A DNA stretch of 20,104 nucleotides, taken from positions 1 to 20,104 of the IMG/VR virus record IMGVR_UViG_3300037258_000191, one strand, 5' to 3'. The first letter of the stretch is position 1, and each line of letters starts with the position of its first letter. Shown here piece after piece: positions 3,977-16,311 of the stretch. The DNA comes from a virus. The position numbers and the translations under genes are program-made. A model generated the notes under the pieces. The model had not been told where the DNA came from and searched no databases. It worked only from the letters and a program-made list of their open reading frames with translations.

Positions 3977-4411
3977 CTAGCCGCCGAAGGTCAGGCTGAC
4001 GGCCCTGTCAAGCTGCGCCCTGGTCGCGTTCACCACGGCGCGCTGCCCCTGGACCTGAAGCCCGTACGAGGCGTACCCGCCGGGCACGCCGCCGATGGTG
4101 AAGGCGCTCACGCAGTCGCCGTAATCCCCGTCCGCGACGCGGCGTCCCGTGGCGGCAACGTGCCCGCTCGCGACCTGGACGCTGCGTCCGCCTGTGGTGG
4201 CCAGCACGATGACCGTCTCGTCATCTTTGCAGCGGGTCGCGCTCACCGGAACCGGCAGGTTAGCGCCGTCCGGGTCGGCCCCGATGCTGGCCTGGTTCCT
4301 GACCGTGCCGTGAACGGTGATCGCCCGCGCGGCGGGAGGTGCGCTACTGCCGCAGGCGGCCAGGAGGATGGCCGGGGCCGCGGCGAAGGCTGCGATGATG
4401 ATCGGGCGCAT
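3977..4411 (-). CDS. Putative lipoprotein encoded between tail chaperones and tape measure
   Basis: A 144-residue secreted protein. The N-terminus is a short hydrophobic signal with a lipobox LAAC at residues 17-20, so Cys20 would be lipidated after signal peptidase II cleavage and the protein anchored to the outer face of the membrane. The body is a small domain with two Cys and the pattern DCVSAFTIGGVP...Y, reminiscent of short secreted proteins of actinobacteria rather than virion proteins. It lies 52 bases after the chaperone stop and 63 before the tape measure start, in the same direction. AAGGA sits only one base from the ATG, so the start is imperfectly supported. No phage structural role is recognised. 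Lipoproteins that block superinfection by acting on the tape measure are known from streptococcal phage TP-J34 (Ltp); a similar role here is inference. Confidence 0.78.
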   Translation of the reverse strand: MRPIIIAAFAAAPAILLAACGSSAPPAARAITVHGTVRNQASIGADPDGANLPVPVSATRCKDDETVIVLATTGGRSVQVASGHVAATGRRVADGDYGDCVSAFTIGGVPGGYASYGLQVQGQRAVVNATRAQLDRAVSLTFGG

Positions 4412-6918: not shown

Positions 6919-7365
6919 CTAACTGTTATCCGGGATCCTTTTAGCGAAGTCGGCGGTGATACCGAGGGTCACGCTGGTGCCCGTGACCACGTAGACCGCG
7001 ACGCGGAACAGGTTCCCCGGGAAGGCGTTCAGGACCGTGGTGTACTTGCCGACCACGGGCGTCGTCCCGGCGGTGAACAGCGCCTGGTAGCCGGGGACCG
7101 TCGAGGAGGACGGGTAGCCCGCGGCAGCGAGAGTGGCGGCCGCATCCGGGTACCAGGTGGTGCCGCCGTCGGGGCTGTTCTGCAGCAGTACCGCGACGAG
7201 GCCGGTGGTGGTCCACGTGCCCGCCTGGGCGGTCAGGTTGATCCGCAGGAGGCCCTTATCGAAGTCGGATCCGGCGAACTGGTTGCCGACGGGCGCGACG
7301 GTCAGGCCGGCGGCGCACACGGTGGCGGCGGGGAGGAGGGTCAGGGTGGAGCTCTCGTAGCCCAA
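6919..7365 (-). CDS. Beta-rich virion protein, TTG start
   Basis: 148 residues. The only usable start that matches the ribosome site is TTG 7365: AAAGG lies seven bases upstream and no ATG fits. The product is beta-rich with LLQNSPDGGTTWYPD, a motif often seen in sandwich-fold decoration or carbohydrate-contacting virion proteins, and a C-terminal strand run VYVVTGTSVTLGITADFAKR. It lies between the tail terminator and another beta-rich small protein. A structural, possibly surface-exposed role is inferred; nothing shows an enzyme. Confidence 0.75.
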   Translation of the reverse strand: MGYESSTLTLLPAATVCAAGLTVAPVGNQFAGSDFDKGLLRINLTAQAGTWTTTGLVAVLLQNSPDGGTTWYPDAAATLAAAGYPSSSTVPGYQALFTAGTTPVVGKYTTVLNAFPGNLFRVAVYVVTGTSVTLGITADFAKRIPDNS

Positions 7366-7422
7366 TGGACTGCCTTTCGGGTGAGGAGAGCGCGCGGCCC
7401 TCTGATGTGGGGATTGCGGGTG

Positions 7423-7833
7423 TCAGGTGCTGGCGATCAGGACGTACGACGAGATGTACTCGGACCTCTCGGCCACGTCAGGCGTCGCGGAGAGCGGCGA
7501 TGGCGGCCCTCCGAGGCGATGACAGTGCACGATCGTCTTGCCGCCCACCACCGCCGGGAACGATGCGCTGAAGATGAGCGCGTCGAACTGCAAGGCGAGC
7601 GACTCGGCAGCGTCCTGGTCGTTCTGGGGGCCGCGGACGCGCGCCTGGAACGCGGAGACGTCGGCCGCGCCTTCCATCTGGTAACCGGGTCCGGGTGTCG
7701 CGGTGATCGTGACGCACCTATCGGGCATCGGCTGGATGTAGGGACCCTTGAACAGGGGTGCGCCGGTCTCCTGGGTGGCGTCCCAGCCGAGGGAAAGCAG
7801 CCACGTCAGCAGGCTTGCGGTCGGCAGCGGCAC
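7423..7833 (-). CDS. Probable tail terminator / minor capsid-type protein
   Basis: 136 residues from GTG 7833, with GAGGTGA six bases upstream. The N-terminus LLTWLLSLGWDATQETGAPLFKGPYIQ and the mid-region PGYQMEGAADVSAFQARVRG followed by AAESLALQFDALI match the tail terminator/tail completion family, in which a small alpha-beta protein caps the tail tube and joins it to the head. Position agrees: after the connectors and before the tube gene. A separate HK97 gp10-like adaptor is not visible between it and the connector at 8541; that gap instead holds two plus-strand genes. Its 5' region is shared back to back with the plus-strand gene at 7864, with 30 bases between start codons. Confidence 0.75.
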   Translation of the reverse strand: MPLPTASLLTWLLSLGWDATQETGAPLFKGPYIQPMPDRCVTITATPGPGYQMEGAADVSAFQARVRGPQNDQDAAESLALQFDALIFSASFPAVVGGKTIVHCHRLGGPPSPLSATPDVAERSEYISSYVLIAST

Positions 7834-7851
7834 GTCCGGTCACCTCGCCGT

Positions 7852-7863
7852 TAAGCTGGAGAG
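7852..7863 (+). promoter_or_regulatory. Candidate leaderless promoter of the protease-homologue gene
   Basis: TAAGCT (TANNNT type) ends six bases before ATG 7864, placing the transcription start at or next to the A of ATG. GGAGAG fills the spacer but is too close to serve as a normal ribosome site. The same arrangement, with GCTGG and AGATGAGCGA in common, precedes the plus-strand gene at 12793. Confidence 0.5.
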
Positions 7864-8301
7864 ATGAGCGAATTGACGACTGCAGGCGAGTACCTCTGGC
7901 GGAAGCAGATCCTGTCGTTCGGGAAGATCACCTACGGCCACAGAGAGGTTGACCTGACGCCCGGCTACCTCGGAAATCTCGCCGACGCTTTCTCGCGGAA
8001 GGCGCTCGATCTAGTCCCGTTCCTCCGCATGGCGGCAGGTAGCTATGCGAGCAACGACCCGGAGCTGTGCCTAGGTGCTGTCCGCGCCCTTGAGATGACG
8101 GCCGACGGCATGGACGCGCTGGTGGCAATGGGGCGCGAGGGCGACGACCTGATCGGTGCCGACGTGAACTTGCCCGTGGCGGCCGGGATCATCGAGGACT
8201 TCATCGCCTCGGATGGCCGGCAATTCCCTGCGGTGCTGCGGCATGTGGTCACGACCGGAAAGCCGATCCTGACCGGCCTGCATCCTTGGCGGCGCGCTTG
8301 A
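7864..8301 (+). CDS. Stand-alone homologue of the prohead protease domain, catalytic residues replaced
   Basis: 145 residues, encoded against the direction of the operon. Residues 11-142 align without gaps to residues 20-151 of the protease-scaffold at 11529-12764, with about 55 identities by hand count. Shared blocks include LWRKQ, ALDLVPF (AYDQVPF in the protease), NDPE, DGMD (DGLD) and the FPA...HV run. The protease segment with His68 and His71 is replaced (here Gly59 and Ala62), and Ser115 in GVSARIVED is Ala106 in PVAAGIIED. If those are the catalytic residues, this protein is inactive. It has no scaffold part. Dimerisation with, or substrate competition against, a phage protease is inference; regulation of capsid maturation or exclusion of related phages are candidate roles. 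It is probably co-transcribed with 8298-8519. Confidence 0.85.
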   Translation: MSELTTAGEYLWRKQILSFGKITYGHREVDLTPGYLGNLADAFSRKALDLVPFLRMAAGSYASNDPELCLGAVRALEMTADGMDALVAMGREGDDLIGADVNLPVAAGIIEDFIASDGRQFPAVLRHVVTTGKPILTGLHPWRRA

Positions 8302-8519
8302 GCGCGGCAGGCGCCCGGATCATCGGCAGCCGCGAGCACAAGATGTTCCGCAGCGACCGCTGCGGAGACGAGCGCGCCGACTTCGAGGTGACCGGGGTCG
8401 GCCGCCGCGAGTACTGCAGCTATCCCGACCACACTCCGCGCATCCGGATCTCCTGGCTGTACGGGCGTCCGCGCATCTGGCTGAAGCCGTGGCTGCCGCG
8501 ATCGTTCTGGAATGCGTGA
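8298..8519 (+). CDS. Small unknown protein coupled to the protease homologue
   Basis: 73 residues if started at TTG 8298, which overlaps the upstream TGA as TTGA, suggesting translational coupling; a TTG at 8286 in the same frame is the alternative. The product is basic and aromatic, with SREHKMFRSDRCGDERADFE in the first half and RIRISWLYGRPRIWLKPWLP near the end. I recognise no family. Its stop is 21 bases from the stop of the converging connector gene (8541). The unusual start and short length keep confidence moderate; the Trp/Arg-rich C-terminus looks like real protein rather than antisense noise. Confidence 0.55.
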   Translation: MSAAGARIIGSREHKMFRSDRCGDERADFEVTGVGRREYCSYPDHTPRIRISWLYGRPRIWLKPWLPRSFWNA

Positions 8520-8540
8520 CCAGTTAGTTTCGCGACGCGC

Positions 8541-9056
8541 TCAGCGGTGGATGACGTTGAGCGGGCCCGGCTCCCGTGAGCCGTGCCCCTCGCCGCGCTT
8601 CCAGCCGCCCCCTGTGAGCCGGTCGAGCGCATCCCTGGCCTTGCCCTTGGCCTTGAGCTCTTCCTCGGACAGGCGCGCTACGCGAGGTGCCCGGTCGTAG
8701 ACCGTCTCCCCATCGCTGGTCACGGTCGGATGGCCGGACGCTCGCAGGTCGTCAAATTCGACCGGAGCGTACCGTGCGACCCCGCCATCTTCGGCTAGGT
8801 CTTCGACGGCCGAGATCATCTCCCGCTTGCCGCCATCGTCCAGGACGGTCTCGGCGATCTTCTGCAGGTAGCTTTCGTGGTGTTCCATGACTGGCTGCCG
8901 CAGGTACATCGCCTGGCCACCGCGAGGATGCACCAGGTCCAGATCCTCATGCTGATACCGGGCATACACCTGGTCGACGGTCACGGATCCGGTCAGGTCA
9001 CCGCGACCGACGCGCTCCTTGAGCTCATCGATTCTCGCCCCGAAGTCACCAGCCAC
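8541..9056 (-). CDS. Conserved head-tail junction protein
   Basis: 171 residues from GTG 9056, overlapping the previous stop by 11 bases. A longer frame to ATG 9131 exists, but its extra residues are low-complexity Arg/Gly/Ala and overlap the upstream gene. The conserved-looking core is DFGARIDELKERVGRGDL, YQHEDLDLVHPRGGQAMYLR and VMEHHESYLQKIAETVLDD, ending in a charged tail with LSEELKAK-like sequence. Proteins of this kind sit between the connector and the tail terminator in many actinophages; the biochemical role is not known to me. A Gly/Arg-rich end and a plus-strand insertion downstream separate it from the tail terminator gene. Confidence 0.75.
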   Translation of the reverse strand: MAGDFGARIDELKERVGRGDLTGSVTVDQVYARYQHEDLDLVHPRGGQAMYLRQPVMEHHESYLQKIAETVLDDGGKREMISAVEDLAEDGGVARYAPVEFDDLRASGHPTVTSDGETVYDRAPRVARLSEEELKAKGKARDALDRLTGGGWKRGEGHGSREPGPLNVIHR

Positions 9057-9552
9057 CGCGACCGCCCCAGCCCGAGCCGCGCGCCCGCTGCGCCTCGAGC
9101 CTGCCACCCGGCCCGAACTCCACGCCTGCATCCTCGGGCCCGAAGGCCCGGGGAATGGTGTTGATCACGCGAGGGGCGCTCGGCTGCGGCGGCGTCCCGC
9201 CCGGGTCGGGCGGGACCGGCACCACTGTGATGCTGCCCGACGAGATGCCCTTCAGCGTGGCCATCGCGTCCTGATACCCGAGGTAAACCGGGTCGGTCGG
9301 CGCGAGATCCCGGCTCTTGCGGTACGTCAGCGTCGCGTAGTACGTCGCCAGCTGCACCGTCAGGTCAAAGATCAGGTCCGGGACCGCATCCGGGTCATAA
9401 GACGAGCCCGTCCACGCGCTCACCCGTGCCGATGCCCTCCCGATGGCTGCGGCCAGCTCAGGGTTGTCCAGCTGGGCGCATGTCCCCGCGCCCAGGTCCG
9501 TGCCCGCCACGTTGTCCCGGACGTCCGCGGGGGTGATGTAGTACGTCGGCAC
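9046..9552 (-). CDS. Head-tail connector protein (gp6-like)
   Basis: 168 residues from GTG 9552. The N-terminal 100 residues, with YYITPADVRDNVAG, NPELAAAIGRASARVSAWTG and a helix PDLIFDLTVQLATYYATLTY, have the helical arrangement of the HK97 gp6 / SPP1 gp15 connector family, which binds under the portal ring. The C-terminal third is Pro/Gly-rich (VPVPPDPGGTPPQPSAPRV) and probably flexible. It follows the capsid gene and one small protein, as expected. The family call rests on pattern and position. Confidence 0.78.
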   Translation of the reverse strand: MPTYYITPADVRDNVAGTDLGAGTCAQLDNPELAAAIGRASARVSAWTGSSYDPDAVPDLIFDLTVQLATYYATLTYRKSRDLAPTDPVYLGYQDAMATLKGISSGSITVVPVPPDPGGTPPQPSAPRVINTIPRAFGPEDAGVEFGPGGRLEAQRARGSGWGGRGGW

Positions 9553-11528: not shown

Positions 11529-12764
11529 CTATAGGGCGTGCGCGCTGCGGTATGCCTTCACGAAGTCGCCGCGCTCGGACGCCTCGGACTCGGCGCGCTG
11601 CGCCTCGGTGTCGGCGCCTTCAGCGTTGCCGAGCTCGACGTCCATGCCGAGGGACTGCATGGTCTTGCCGAACTCCTTGATCAGGTTCCGGACGATCGCC
11701 CCGGCGTCGGTGGACTTGCCGTTGGCGAGTTCCACGGTGCGGCCGGAGCCTTCCAGGAGCTCGCGGGCCAGGTCGGTGATCCGGGCGGGGATGCCGAGGA
11801 CACGCTGGTAGTGGTCGCGTTCCCGCTCGTAGGTGGCCCGGTCGAGCTGGGTGCGGGTGCGCCGCGCCTCGGCCATGGCTTCCTCGGCGCGGGCGTTGGC
11901 CGTCTCGATCGCGGTCTGCGCCTCGTTGCTGAGGGATGCGCCAGCAGTGGCGGGCTCCCGCTCGGGCTCCGTCACGGCGTCGGTGGCGGCGGTCTCGGTG
12001 TCGATGTCCGCGAGCATCTGCTCGAGCGCCTCGTCGGTCAGCTCATCCTCGGCCTCGCCCGTGACGTTCCCGGTGTCCTCGTCCTGCGGCTGCGCGGTGA
12101 TCAGGGCGTCGAACTGGTCCTTCGGGAGGTCCAGCAGCGCCTTCAGCCGGGCCTCCTGCTCGTCGGTGAAAGCCATGCCGGCCTCCCCTTCCTGCGCCGT
12201 AGGCGCGTTGTCCGGCTCGGCCTGCGCCTTCGCCGGGGGTTCGGTTGCGTACTCCATGACAGTCAGGTCGATGACCTCGCCGTCGTCCTCGTTCGCGGCC
12301 TCCACGGCCTGCCAGGGCCGCATGCCGGGGATGCGCGGGTCCAGGGTGCCGAGCACGTGCTGGATCGCGGCGGGGAAGTGCCTGCCGTCGGCGCGGGCGT
12401 AATCCTCGACGATCCGGGCGGACACGCCGAGCGCGGGATTCTTCGCCAGCAGCGCGGAGCCGTCCTCGGTGGCGGCGATGATGATGTCCAGGCCGTCCTG
12501 GGTGAGCTCGACGCCCTTAACCTCGCCCCGGAAGCGTTCCGGGTCGTTGGTGTGGGTGTTGTGGGCGTCGGCGAGCTGGAACGGCACCTGGTCGTAGGCG
12601 CGGCCGTTGAACGCCTGCGCGAGCCTGGCGAGGTAGGGGCGGTCGAAGACGATCTTCCGGCCCTTGTAATCGATCTCACCGACCGGCAGGAGCTGCTTGC
12701 GCCAGAGAGTGGCGCCGGACGGGCGGGCTTTACCCTTGTCGACGGGCGTCAGGAGAGCGGTCAC
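11529..12764 (-). CDS. Prohead protease fused to scaffold (Mu gpI-like)
   Basis: 411 residues from GTG 12764; AAAGGAGG lies about nine bases upstream. Residues 18-155 form the protease domain (LWRKQLLPVGEIDYKGRK; ADAHNTHTND with His68 and His71; GVSARIVEDY with Ser115), the arrangement expected of Mu gpI-type maturation proteases, which share a His/Ser site with herpes-like assemblins. Residues about 155-290 are acidic and disordered, and 290-400 contain a coiled coil (QTAIETANARAEEAMAEARR) like a scaffold core. It therefore probably acts as both scaffold and protease, directing shell assembly and then digesting itself. VELAN near the C-terminal part resembles a motif repeated in the 667-residue head protein. 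It starts 28 bases from the divergent HTH gene. Confidence 0.88.
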   Translation of the reverse strand: MTALLTPVDKGKARPSGATLWRKQLLPVGEIDYKGRKIVFDRPYLARLAQAFNGRAYDQVPFQLADAHNTHTNDPERFRGEVKGVELTQDGLDIIIAATEDGSALLAKNPALGVSARIVEDYARADGRHFPAAIQHVLGTLDPRIPGMRPWQAVEAANEDDGEVIDLTVMEYATEPPAKAQAEPDNAPTAQEGEAGMAFTDEQEARLKALLDLPKDQFDALITAQPQDEDTGNVTGEAEDELTDEALEQMLADIDTETAATDAVTEPEREPATAGASLSNEAQTAIETANARAEEAMAEARRTRTQLDRATYERERDHYQRVLGIPARITDLARELLEGSGRTVELANGKSTDAGAIVRNLIKEFGKTMQSLGMDVELGNAEGADTEAQRAESEASERGDFVKAYRSAHAL

Positions 12765-15041: not shown

Positions 15042-15352
15042 CAGTCAACTCGTGCGGGCCAGTGCCAGGTACCGCCCCGGTAGTTTCGCGCGTTACACAG
15101 GTGCGTGAGGCTCTGTGCGTCCTCGGTGCCCTGATCCGGCCGGATGTTCTGGCTAAAGAACTGCCCGGTGGGGTTGAGAACGCACAGCGATAGCTCGGGC
15201 TCTATGCCGCCGAGGTGCGACGATGCATGCTGCGGGCCAACCTCGGTGACGATTGCCGCCCGGCACTCGCTGGTGTACGCCTGCGAGCCGTCAGGCTGTA
15301 CCGGAGAACCGTGGCTGACGTAATGCACCACGCGTCCAATAGATGGCCTCAT
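15041..15352 (-). CDS. Small conserved phage protein of unknown function
   Basis: 103 residues, overlapping the upstream gene by ATGA (15349-15352) and the downstream one by a base, so tightly coupled. The N-terminus RPSIGRVVHYVSHGSPVQPD, a middle ECRAAIVTEVG and LSLCVLNPTGQFF, and the end RGGTWHWPARVD form a pattern I recognise as frequent in actinophage head regions without known role. It looks like a small beta-barrel. There are no catalytic signatures. Confidence 0.75.
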   Translation of the reverse strand: MRPSIGRVVHYVSHGSPVQPDGSQAYTSECRAAIVTEVGPQHASSHLGGIEPELSLCVLNPTGQFFSQNIRPDQGTEDAQSLTHLCNARNYRGGTWHWPARVD

Positions 15353-16311
15353 GCCTGTTCCTTCCCGGTGCCGAGCGCGAACCGCCGCACGTCATCGCCG
15401 CGATGCACCGACAGGTGAGTGAACCGGACGGGCGTCGGGGGGACCGGACGCGGTAGCGGGTCGTCTTTGCCGACGTATGAGAGGGTGACGTGCGGCTTCC
15501 AGTCCTTGAACTCGCTGGCCGACAGATCCTCGAGCCCGTCGCGGATCGGCTGCGCGCCCTTGAGTGCCACCTTGGCGAACGCCGGGCGCTTGCCGTCACT
15601 GCTGGAGGATGGCGGGAACGAGTCCACGCCGCCGACCACGCCGGCCATCGGGCCGGGCGCGGACTTAGCGACCGCCTGAGCGCGGCTGCAAGCCTGAGCG
15701 AACGCGTCGTCGTCCACGTCATCGCCGAGGAACACGACCGTGATGTGATGCGAGGTGACGCCACCCGGAACCGGCTTGACTGTGCCCTTCGGCAGGTCGA
15801 GCGAGATCATGCCCGAACCGGACCTGACCACGCCTGCCGGGTAGCCAGCGGCGGCGAGATCCAACGCGGCACCGCCGTTCGCCAGCTGCTTGTGATGCGT
15901 CGACTGCCACGGCCCGCGATCCGTCTTCGCTACCCCGATCCACGCCGTGACCGGCTGGCCGATCTGAGCGCAGGCGGTCACCCGCGTATGGCCGTCCACG
16001 GCGTACGTGAGCCGTCGGCCCGGCGTCTTCACCAGGACGGCCGGCTTGCGCCAGCCAGCGGCGATCCTGCGGGCGAACGCGGCCACTTTCCGCTTGTCCG
16101 CCGACGCTGACCAGTCGCCAGAGTTCCGGTCGATCTGGTTCACGGGGACGAGTTTCGGCCCGGACCATTCCAGGTCATCGACCCACGACAGAGCACCCGG
16201 CGGGTAGTCGCGCTGGAGCTGTGCCTTCACCCGGTCGGCTACGGAGGTGCCAGAGTGTGCGGGAGCGGTGATGACGTCCGAGGGGGCGGCGGTCGTCGTG
16301 GCCACGGTCAC
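15349..16311 (-). CDS. ParB-like domain fused to 2H phosphoesterase
   Basis: 320 residues from GTG 16311; a GTG two codons later is also possible. Residues about 50-130 resemble a ParB/Srx-fold domain, with LVPVNQIDRN, a helix AAFARRIAAGWRKPAVLV and the signature DGHTRVTACAQIG (106-118). Residues about 165-310 are a 2H phosphoesterase: two HxT motifs, HIT at 189-191 and HVT at 274-276, each in a typical strand (HITVVFLG, HVTLSYVG). Both motifs are intact, so phosphodiesterase activity on 2',3'-cyclic or 2'-5' linked nucleotides is plausible. NGGAALDLA (145-153) joins the domains and resembles the ELA motifs of the neighbouring head protein. Such domain combinations occur in phage polyvalent proteins delivered with the genome; delivery here is inferred from its place among head genes. 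Confidence 0.8.
   Translation of the reverse strand: MTVATTTAAPSDVITAPAHSGTSVADRVKAQLQRDYPPGALSWVDDLEWSGPKLVPVNQIDRNSGDWSASADKRKVAAFARRIAAGWRKPAVLVKTPGRRLTYAVDGHTRVTACAQIGQPVTAWIGVAKTDRGPWQSTHHKQLANGGAALDLAAAGYPAGVVRSGSGMISLDLPKGTVKPVPGGVTSHHITVVFLGDDVDDDAFAQACSRAQAVAKSAPGPMAGVVGGVDSFPPSSSSDGKRPAFAKVALKGAQPIRDGLEDLSASEFKDWKPHVTLSYVGKDDPLPRPVPPTPVRFTHLSVHRGDDVRRFALGTGKEQA

Follow-up and report, generated by a model that had tools for sequence, protein, structure and literature searches.

A stand-alone, catalytically dead copy of a prohead-protease domain in a viral contig as a candidate mimic of the maturation protease

Why would a virus carry, on the strand opposite to its structural genes, a second copy of the protease domain of its own prohead, apparently deprived of its catalytic residues? 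The question is raised by a 20,104-nucleotide stretch of DNA (positions 1 to 20,104 of the IMG/VR virus record IMGVR_UViG_3300037258_000191), the whole of which is hereafter called the window, and it concerns two of its products, P0001 and P0002:

7864–8301, plus strand: P0001, a stand-alone prohead-protease domain of 145 amino acids (aa), catalytically dead by its sequence; ATG start with GGAGAG immediately 5′.
11529–12764, minus strand: P0002, a protease-scaffold protein of 411 aa, with the protease domain at about residues 20–154 and a helical, scaffold-like part at about 200–411.
8047–8049, plus strand: codon of Ala62 of P0001, at the column where relatives invariably have the catalytic His (H71 in P0002), from the alignment with relatives.
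8179–8181, plus strand: codon of Ala106 of P0001, at the column of the invariant nucleophile Ser115 of P0002, from the same alignment.
8242–8244, plus strand: codon of His127 of P0001, the retained third invariant His (H136 of P0002), from the same alignment.
12552–12554, minus strand: codon of H71 of P0002, invariant in the family alignment.
12420–12422, minus strand: codon of S115 of P0002, invariant in the family alignment.

P0001 aligns without gaps to residues 16–152 of P0002, with 56 of 137 residues identical and 84 of 137 positive (E = 1e-35), and a tblastn search across the window recovered the P0002 gene at 3.9e-33 and no match in the rest of the window. The likeness to the protein encoded at 11529–12764, first proposed in a reading of the letters made before any search (the sequence-only reading), is thus confirmed. 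Invariant positions among P0002 relatives include H71, S115 and H136, and their equivalents in P0001 are A62, A106 and H127. The exchange of Ser115 for Ala106 stands as that reading had it; of the two histidines that it considered lost, His71 belongs to an invariant column, occupied by Ala62 in P0001, whereas His68 has to be dropped from the argument, since column 68 of P0002 is not conserved among relatives (A, Q, D and K occur). The order His-Ser-His in the P0002 family is, we take it, that of the herpesvirus assemblin triad. Searches of Pfam, PHROGs, PADLOC and NCBIfam with P0001 gave nothing meaningful, and exact-peptide scans of viral and genome contigs found no close relatives of it. P0001 is rejected as a mere fragment split from the structural gene, an idea already discounted in the sequence-only reading, and likewise as a frameshifted part of it, P0002 being intact and on the other strand. 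Judged on these residues, P0001 is a stand-alone copy of the prohead-protease domain that has lost the nucleophile and the catalytic His and, as had also been noticed, has no scaffold tail.

The fold appears to have outlived the active site. The AlphaFold2 model of P0001, built from an alignment of 84 domains without two rows from the annotated phage collection, reached a pLDDT of 90.9 and a pTM of 0.84. Compared with solved structures it placed herpesvirus maturation proteases at the top (best E 6.7e-4, TM about 0.5), only one PDB match reaching E ≤ 0.001, and a profile search of PDB sequences gave chance-level matches only. The predicted viral proteins of BFVD gave 110 matches at E ≤ 0.001, and where these carry a name it is often that of a prohead protease or a protease-scaffold protein. 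P0001 is confidently predicted to retain an assemblin-like fold; the different fold that could have undone the initial proposal did not appear, herpesvirus assemblins and phage prohead proteases being what its model matches.

The P0002 model shows the same protease domain followed by a mostly helical, partly disordered remainder, and matches the same solved proteases as that of P0001. PHROG 976 (head maturation protease) was matched by 8 of 84 family members (best 9.5e-7), and Pfam Mu-like_Pro weakly by one of the 84. Because of the fold and of these profile matches, P0002 is assigned to the Mu I/Z or P2 gpO-like protease-scaffolds, and P0001 to the protease domain of P0002 alone. In Streptomyces phage Marky (locus L083), gp14 (7941–9047), annotated as hypothetical, is a relative of P0002, and gp8 (1952–2599), annotated as capsid maturation protease, is homologous to the MuF-like gene of the window (41%). 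The separate maturation protease suggested by the gp8 annotation was rejected on account of this homology, and P0002 therefore remains the sole protease candidate.

How exceptional a dead stand-alone copy is was judged from the family gathered from IMG/VR by alignment, and about 120 whole records were screened for second copies. The comparison covers 111 distinct domain sequences. Equivalents of H71, S115 and H136 are present in all 109 full-length ones, and the two stand-alone sequences both lack the nucleophile Ser, P0001 carrying H71→A and S115→A and the other copy, P0003, carrying S115→A; under random assignment the two stand-alone sequences would coincide with the two Ser-less ones once in 6105, a figure to be read with the non-independence of the sequences in mind. 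The intact homologues that might have pointed to an ordinary protease are thus all full-length, and the only other stand-alone copy is dead as well:

89235–89642 of G017 (a 127.8-kb viral contig), minus strand: P0003, the second stand-alone copy, about 143 aa from GTG, with Ala for Ser and the His kept.

Apart from P0003 and P0001, the alignment scans returned no stand-alone copy; a plasmid match (Saccharopolyspora, 28%) was also obtained. The normal protease of P0003's phage is encoded at 46414–46833 of the same contig, about 42 kb from P0003, which lies in an operon and whose probable GTG start overlaps the stop of the preceding gene (GTGA). The tree joins P0001 and P0003 (support 95/89), but on long branches and with a warning, and leaving out either one shifts the placement of the other; a grouping of P0003 with its own phage's protease was not rejected by a tree test. 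At Cys69 of P0001 (8068–8070) P0003 also has Cys, and 81 of 82 full-length proteins differ there, by chance or as a shared trait. With two such cases, dead stand-alone protease mimics seem to form a genuine, if rare, class of accessory genes.

That such a copy has not simply decayed is suggested by what it has kept. In 2000 neutral simulations run to the observed identity (substitutions only, phage base composition, HKY-type changes) the fraction of similar residues never exceeded 0.599, and P0001 has 0.613. A stop-free frame persisted in 248 of the 2000 runs, so the open frame by itself is weak evidence. P0001 retains 34 of 56 positions conserved at ≥90%, against 22 of 89 others (p = 2e-5), and P0003 37 of 56 against 27 of 88. 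The losses in P0001 are uneven: 15 of 18 conserved positions are retained in the N-terminal part, 7 of 13 in the Ser segment and 3 of 8 in the His segment, which agrees with the early remark that the His segment is the most divergent. Codon positions are of coding type, with a GC content at third positions (GC3) of 0.81. On these measures the divergence of P0001 is not neutral drift, although part of the conservation could date from before catalysis was lost.

The position of the gene tells a similar story of addition. On the minus strand the order is terminase, portal, MuF-like, protease-scaffold, phrog_673 head protein, capsid protein, adaptor, connector, tail tube and tape measure, and P0001 interrupts it as follows:

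7423–7833, minus strand: head-tail connector or tail terminator gene flanking the insert on the left, from comparison with relatives.
7834–8540, no strand assigned: opposite-strand insert of 707 bp holding P0001 and a 73-aa open reading frame (ORF), from comparison of the junction with relatives.
8298–8519, plus strand: the 73-aa ORF, whose TTG start overlaps the TGA of P0001, likely a translationally coupled partner.
8541–9131, minus strand: structural-region gene flanking the insert on the right, from comparison with relatives.

The flanking genes overlap, abut or lie no more than 41 bp apart in 43 of 50 relatives (28 of these with a 4-bp overlap), and because 707 bp separate them in the window the P0001 cassette is, on its junctions, a moron-type insertion. 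The remaining seven relatives have inserts of about 200–740 bp at the same junction, with other ORFs. No relative of the 73-aa ORF was found among phages or viral contigs. In a close relative, L006, a different opposite-strand gene pair occupies the site; one of the pair, of 79 aa, shows relationship (37%, E = 1e-8) with the gene directly upstream of P0003 (L006, 12282–12916; L085, 7643–8078). From the variable inserts and this relationship, the junction appears to take up accessory genes, and genes of the P0001 type and those of L006 and beside P0003 seem to be drawn from one pool. The promoter of its own that the sequence-only reading had granted P0001 was not recovered: a simple sigma-70 scan of 7300–8800 found none, although actinobacterial promoters may escape such a scan, and with only 30 bp between P0001 and its divergent neighbour any promoter must overlap that gene. 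A simple terminator scan around P0001 found none either.

What, then, might the protein do? We propose, tentatively and with a probability of about 0.42, that P0001 is a non-cutting mimic competing with the active protease for partners or substrates. It would pair with the protease domain of the active enzyme, or sit on the cleavage sites of scaffold and capsid protein, and capsid maturation would thereby be lowered or delayed. Related phages sharing the cell, through co-infection or superinfection, would be the likeliest target, because few relatives have the gene and its transcription is separate from that of the structural genes; as a second choice, it would mildly restrain the maturation of its own phage. 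In phage D3, proheads whose protease is inactivated by H141Q do not progress beyond uncleaved Prohead 1 (PMC12749128), and a dead copy could therefore slow maturation if it gained access to the prohead or its substrates. The satellite protein Rcm, a proposed competitor of a scaffold, interferes with phage reproduction (PMC12409344), and small satellite proteins interfere with the heads of rivals (PMC12409344, PMC10945586). Three observations weigh against the proposal. P0001 lacks the scaffold part expected to carry a protease into the prohead. It is as close to the proteases of other phages (up to 45% identity) as to that of its own (41%), so that selective action on rivals is not evident; these two points together are the main difficulty for a selective attack. 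Finally, P0001 and P0003 sit on very long branches and may have originated independently.

An action during lysogeny, which the sequence-only reading had also entertained, has lost ground. When 84,980 GTDB species genomes of bacteria and archaea were scanned with a pattern, one relative was returned, and a profile search of 395 genomes from its class gave a single positive genome. Of 34 records searched, for the most part the larger ones, 27 lack a tyrosine integrase and none has a serine recombinase of the resolvase family (IMG/VR records may be fragments), and the portions covered of the annotation of phage Marky list no integrase; G017, the contig of P0003, does carry one. Since bacterial genomes hardly ever contain a member of the family and most records lack an integrase, a main role as lysogenic immunity gene is not favoured.

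The same scarcity suggests a virulent phage, for which the main rival reading, though an unlikely one, would also work: P0001 as a counter-defence decoy that occupies a host sensor, such as a CBASS cyclase, triggered by the active prohead protease, and so keeps a late-acting defence off. A sparse accessory distribution would fit it, as would a fold that has outlasted its catalytic pair. No defence system was seen and P0001 has no PADLOC match, and we know of no dead-protease decoy directed against host sensing. A review reports an interaction between a prohead protease and a CBASS sensor (PMC12409349), and a 2026 preprint, cited in PMC13424991, says in its title that CBASS is activated by phage proteases.

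Less probable again is a new activity, with the fold reused for an unrelated function, for instance to bind some other protein of phage or host; the branch of P0001, at 3.7 changes per column, and its pairing with the unrelated 73-aa ORF would suit this, but the N-terminal half and the core are still near the protease. Somewhat more doubtful is a structural or regulatory head component, a dead domain that would enter the phage's own prohead or virion and tune scaffold or capsid geometry: derivation from a head protein and a site in the head-tail connector region speak for it, against which stand the opposite strand, the fact that almost no relative sharing these head genes has the gene, and the distance of P0003 from its phage's protease gene. 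Least probable is a relic, a duplicated domain drifting without function, for which the single known sequence of the gene, the missing conserved residues and the simulated frames that stayed open can be cited, but which is hard to reconcile with a similarity above every neutral simulation and a retained core (signals that could partly predate the loss of catalysis), with coding-type codon positions in a domain-sized ORF of confident fold, and with a second dead copy within an operon.

Two further genes of the window deserve mention in their own right. Directly before the tape measure gene, 3977–4411 (minus strand) encodes a putative lipoprotein with a signal peptide and an AACG lipobox and no relative in any fetched locus; at this site L006 has an unrelated ORF with a membrane segment on the opposite strand, and both could be superinfection-exclusion genes. 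A 320-aa gene (15349–16311, minus strand) that separates the MuF-like gene from the protease block, and that 26 of 151 fetched loci contain (some of these loci come from one record), shows a weak match to 2H-phosphoesterases (LigT / 2'-5' RNA ligase) and a marginal one to anti-CBASS Acb1.

In the open-access literature we found no previous description of a dead prohead-protease copy occurring naturally as a separate protein. If the proposed competition or sensor-blinding holds, such copies would give phages a new means of hindering rivals as they mature their capsids, or of blinding a defence that senses the protease. Herpesvirus proteases need dimers, and P0001 offers a natural probe of whether phage proteases need partners to work. 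With the prohead protease-scaffolds of the Mu I/Z and P2 gpO type (herpesvirus-assemblin fold; PF10123, phrog_976) P0001 shares the fold and a homologous domain, but it is encoded by an accessory gene of its own and lacks the nucleophile, the first catalytic His and the scaffold tail. Like the engineered inactive proteases (phage D3 H141Q; the S134A structures of human cytomegalovirus, HCMV) it has a dead site on an intact fold; those, however, are laboratory mutants of a structural gene, whereas P0001 is a natural, separate one. It would compete with the head assembly factors of another phage as do Rcm and CpmB of Staphylococcus aureus pathogenicity islands (SaPIs) and TcaP of the phage-inducible chromosomal island-like element (PLE) (PMC12409344, PMC10945586). 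None of these is a copy of a protease, their targets being capsid or scaffold, and P0001 lies on a phage contig and not on a satellite. Phage morons such as superinfection-exclusion genes are likewise extra, opposite-strand genes between structural genes and variable among relatives, although to our knowledge no other moron is a dead copy of its phage's own maturation protease. We rate P0001 as an addition to the accessory genes with which phages influence head assembly or defence, in this case built from a dead maturation enzyme.
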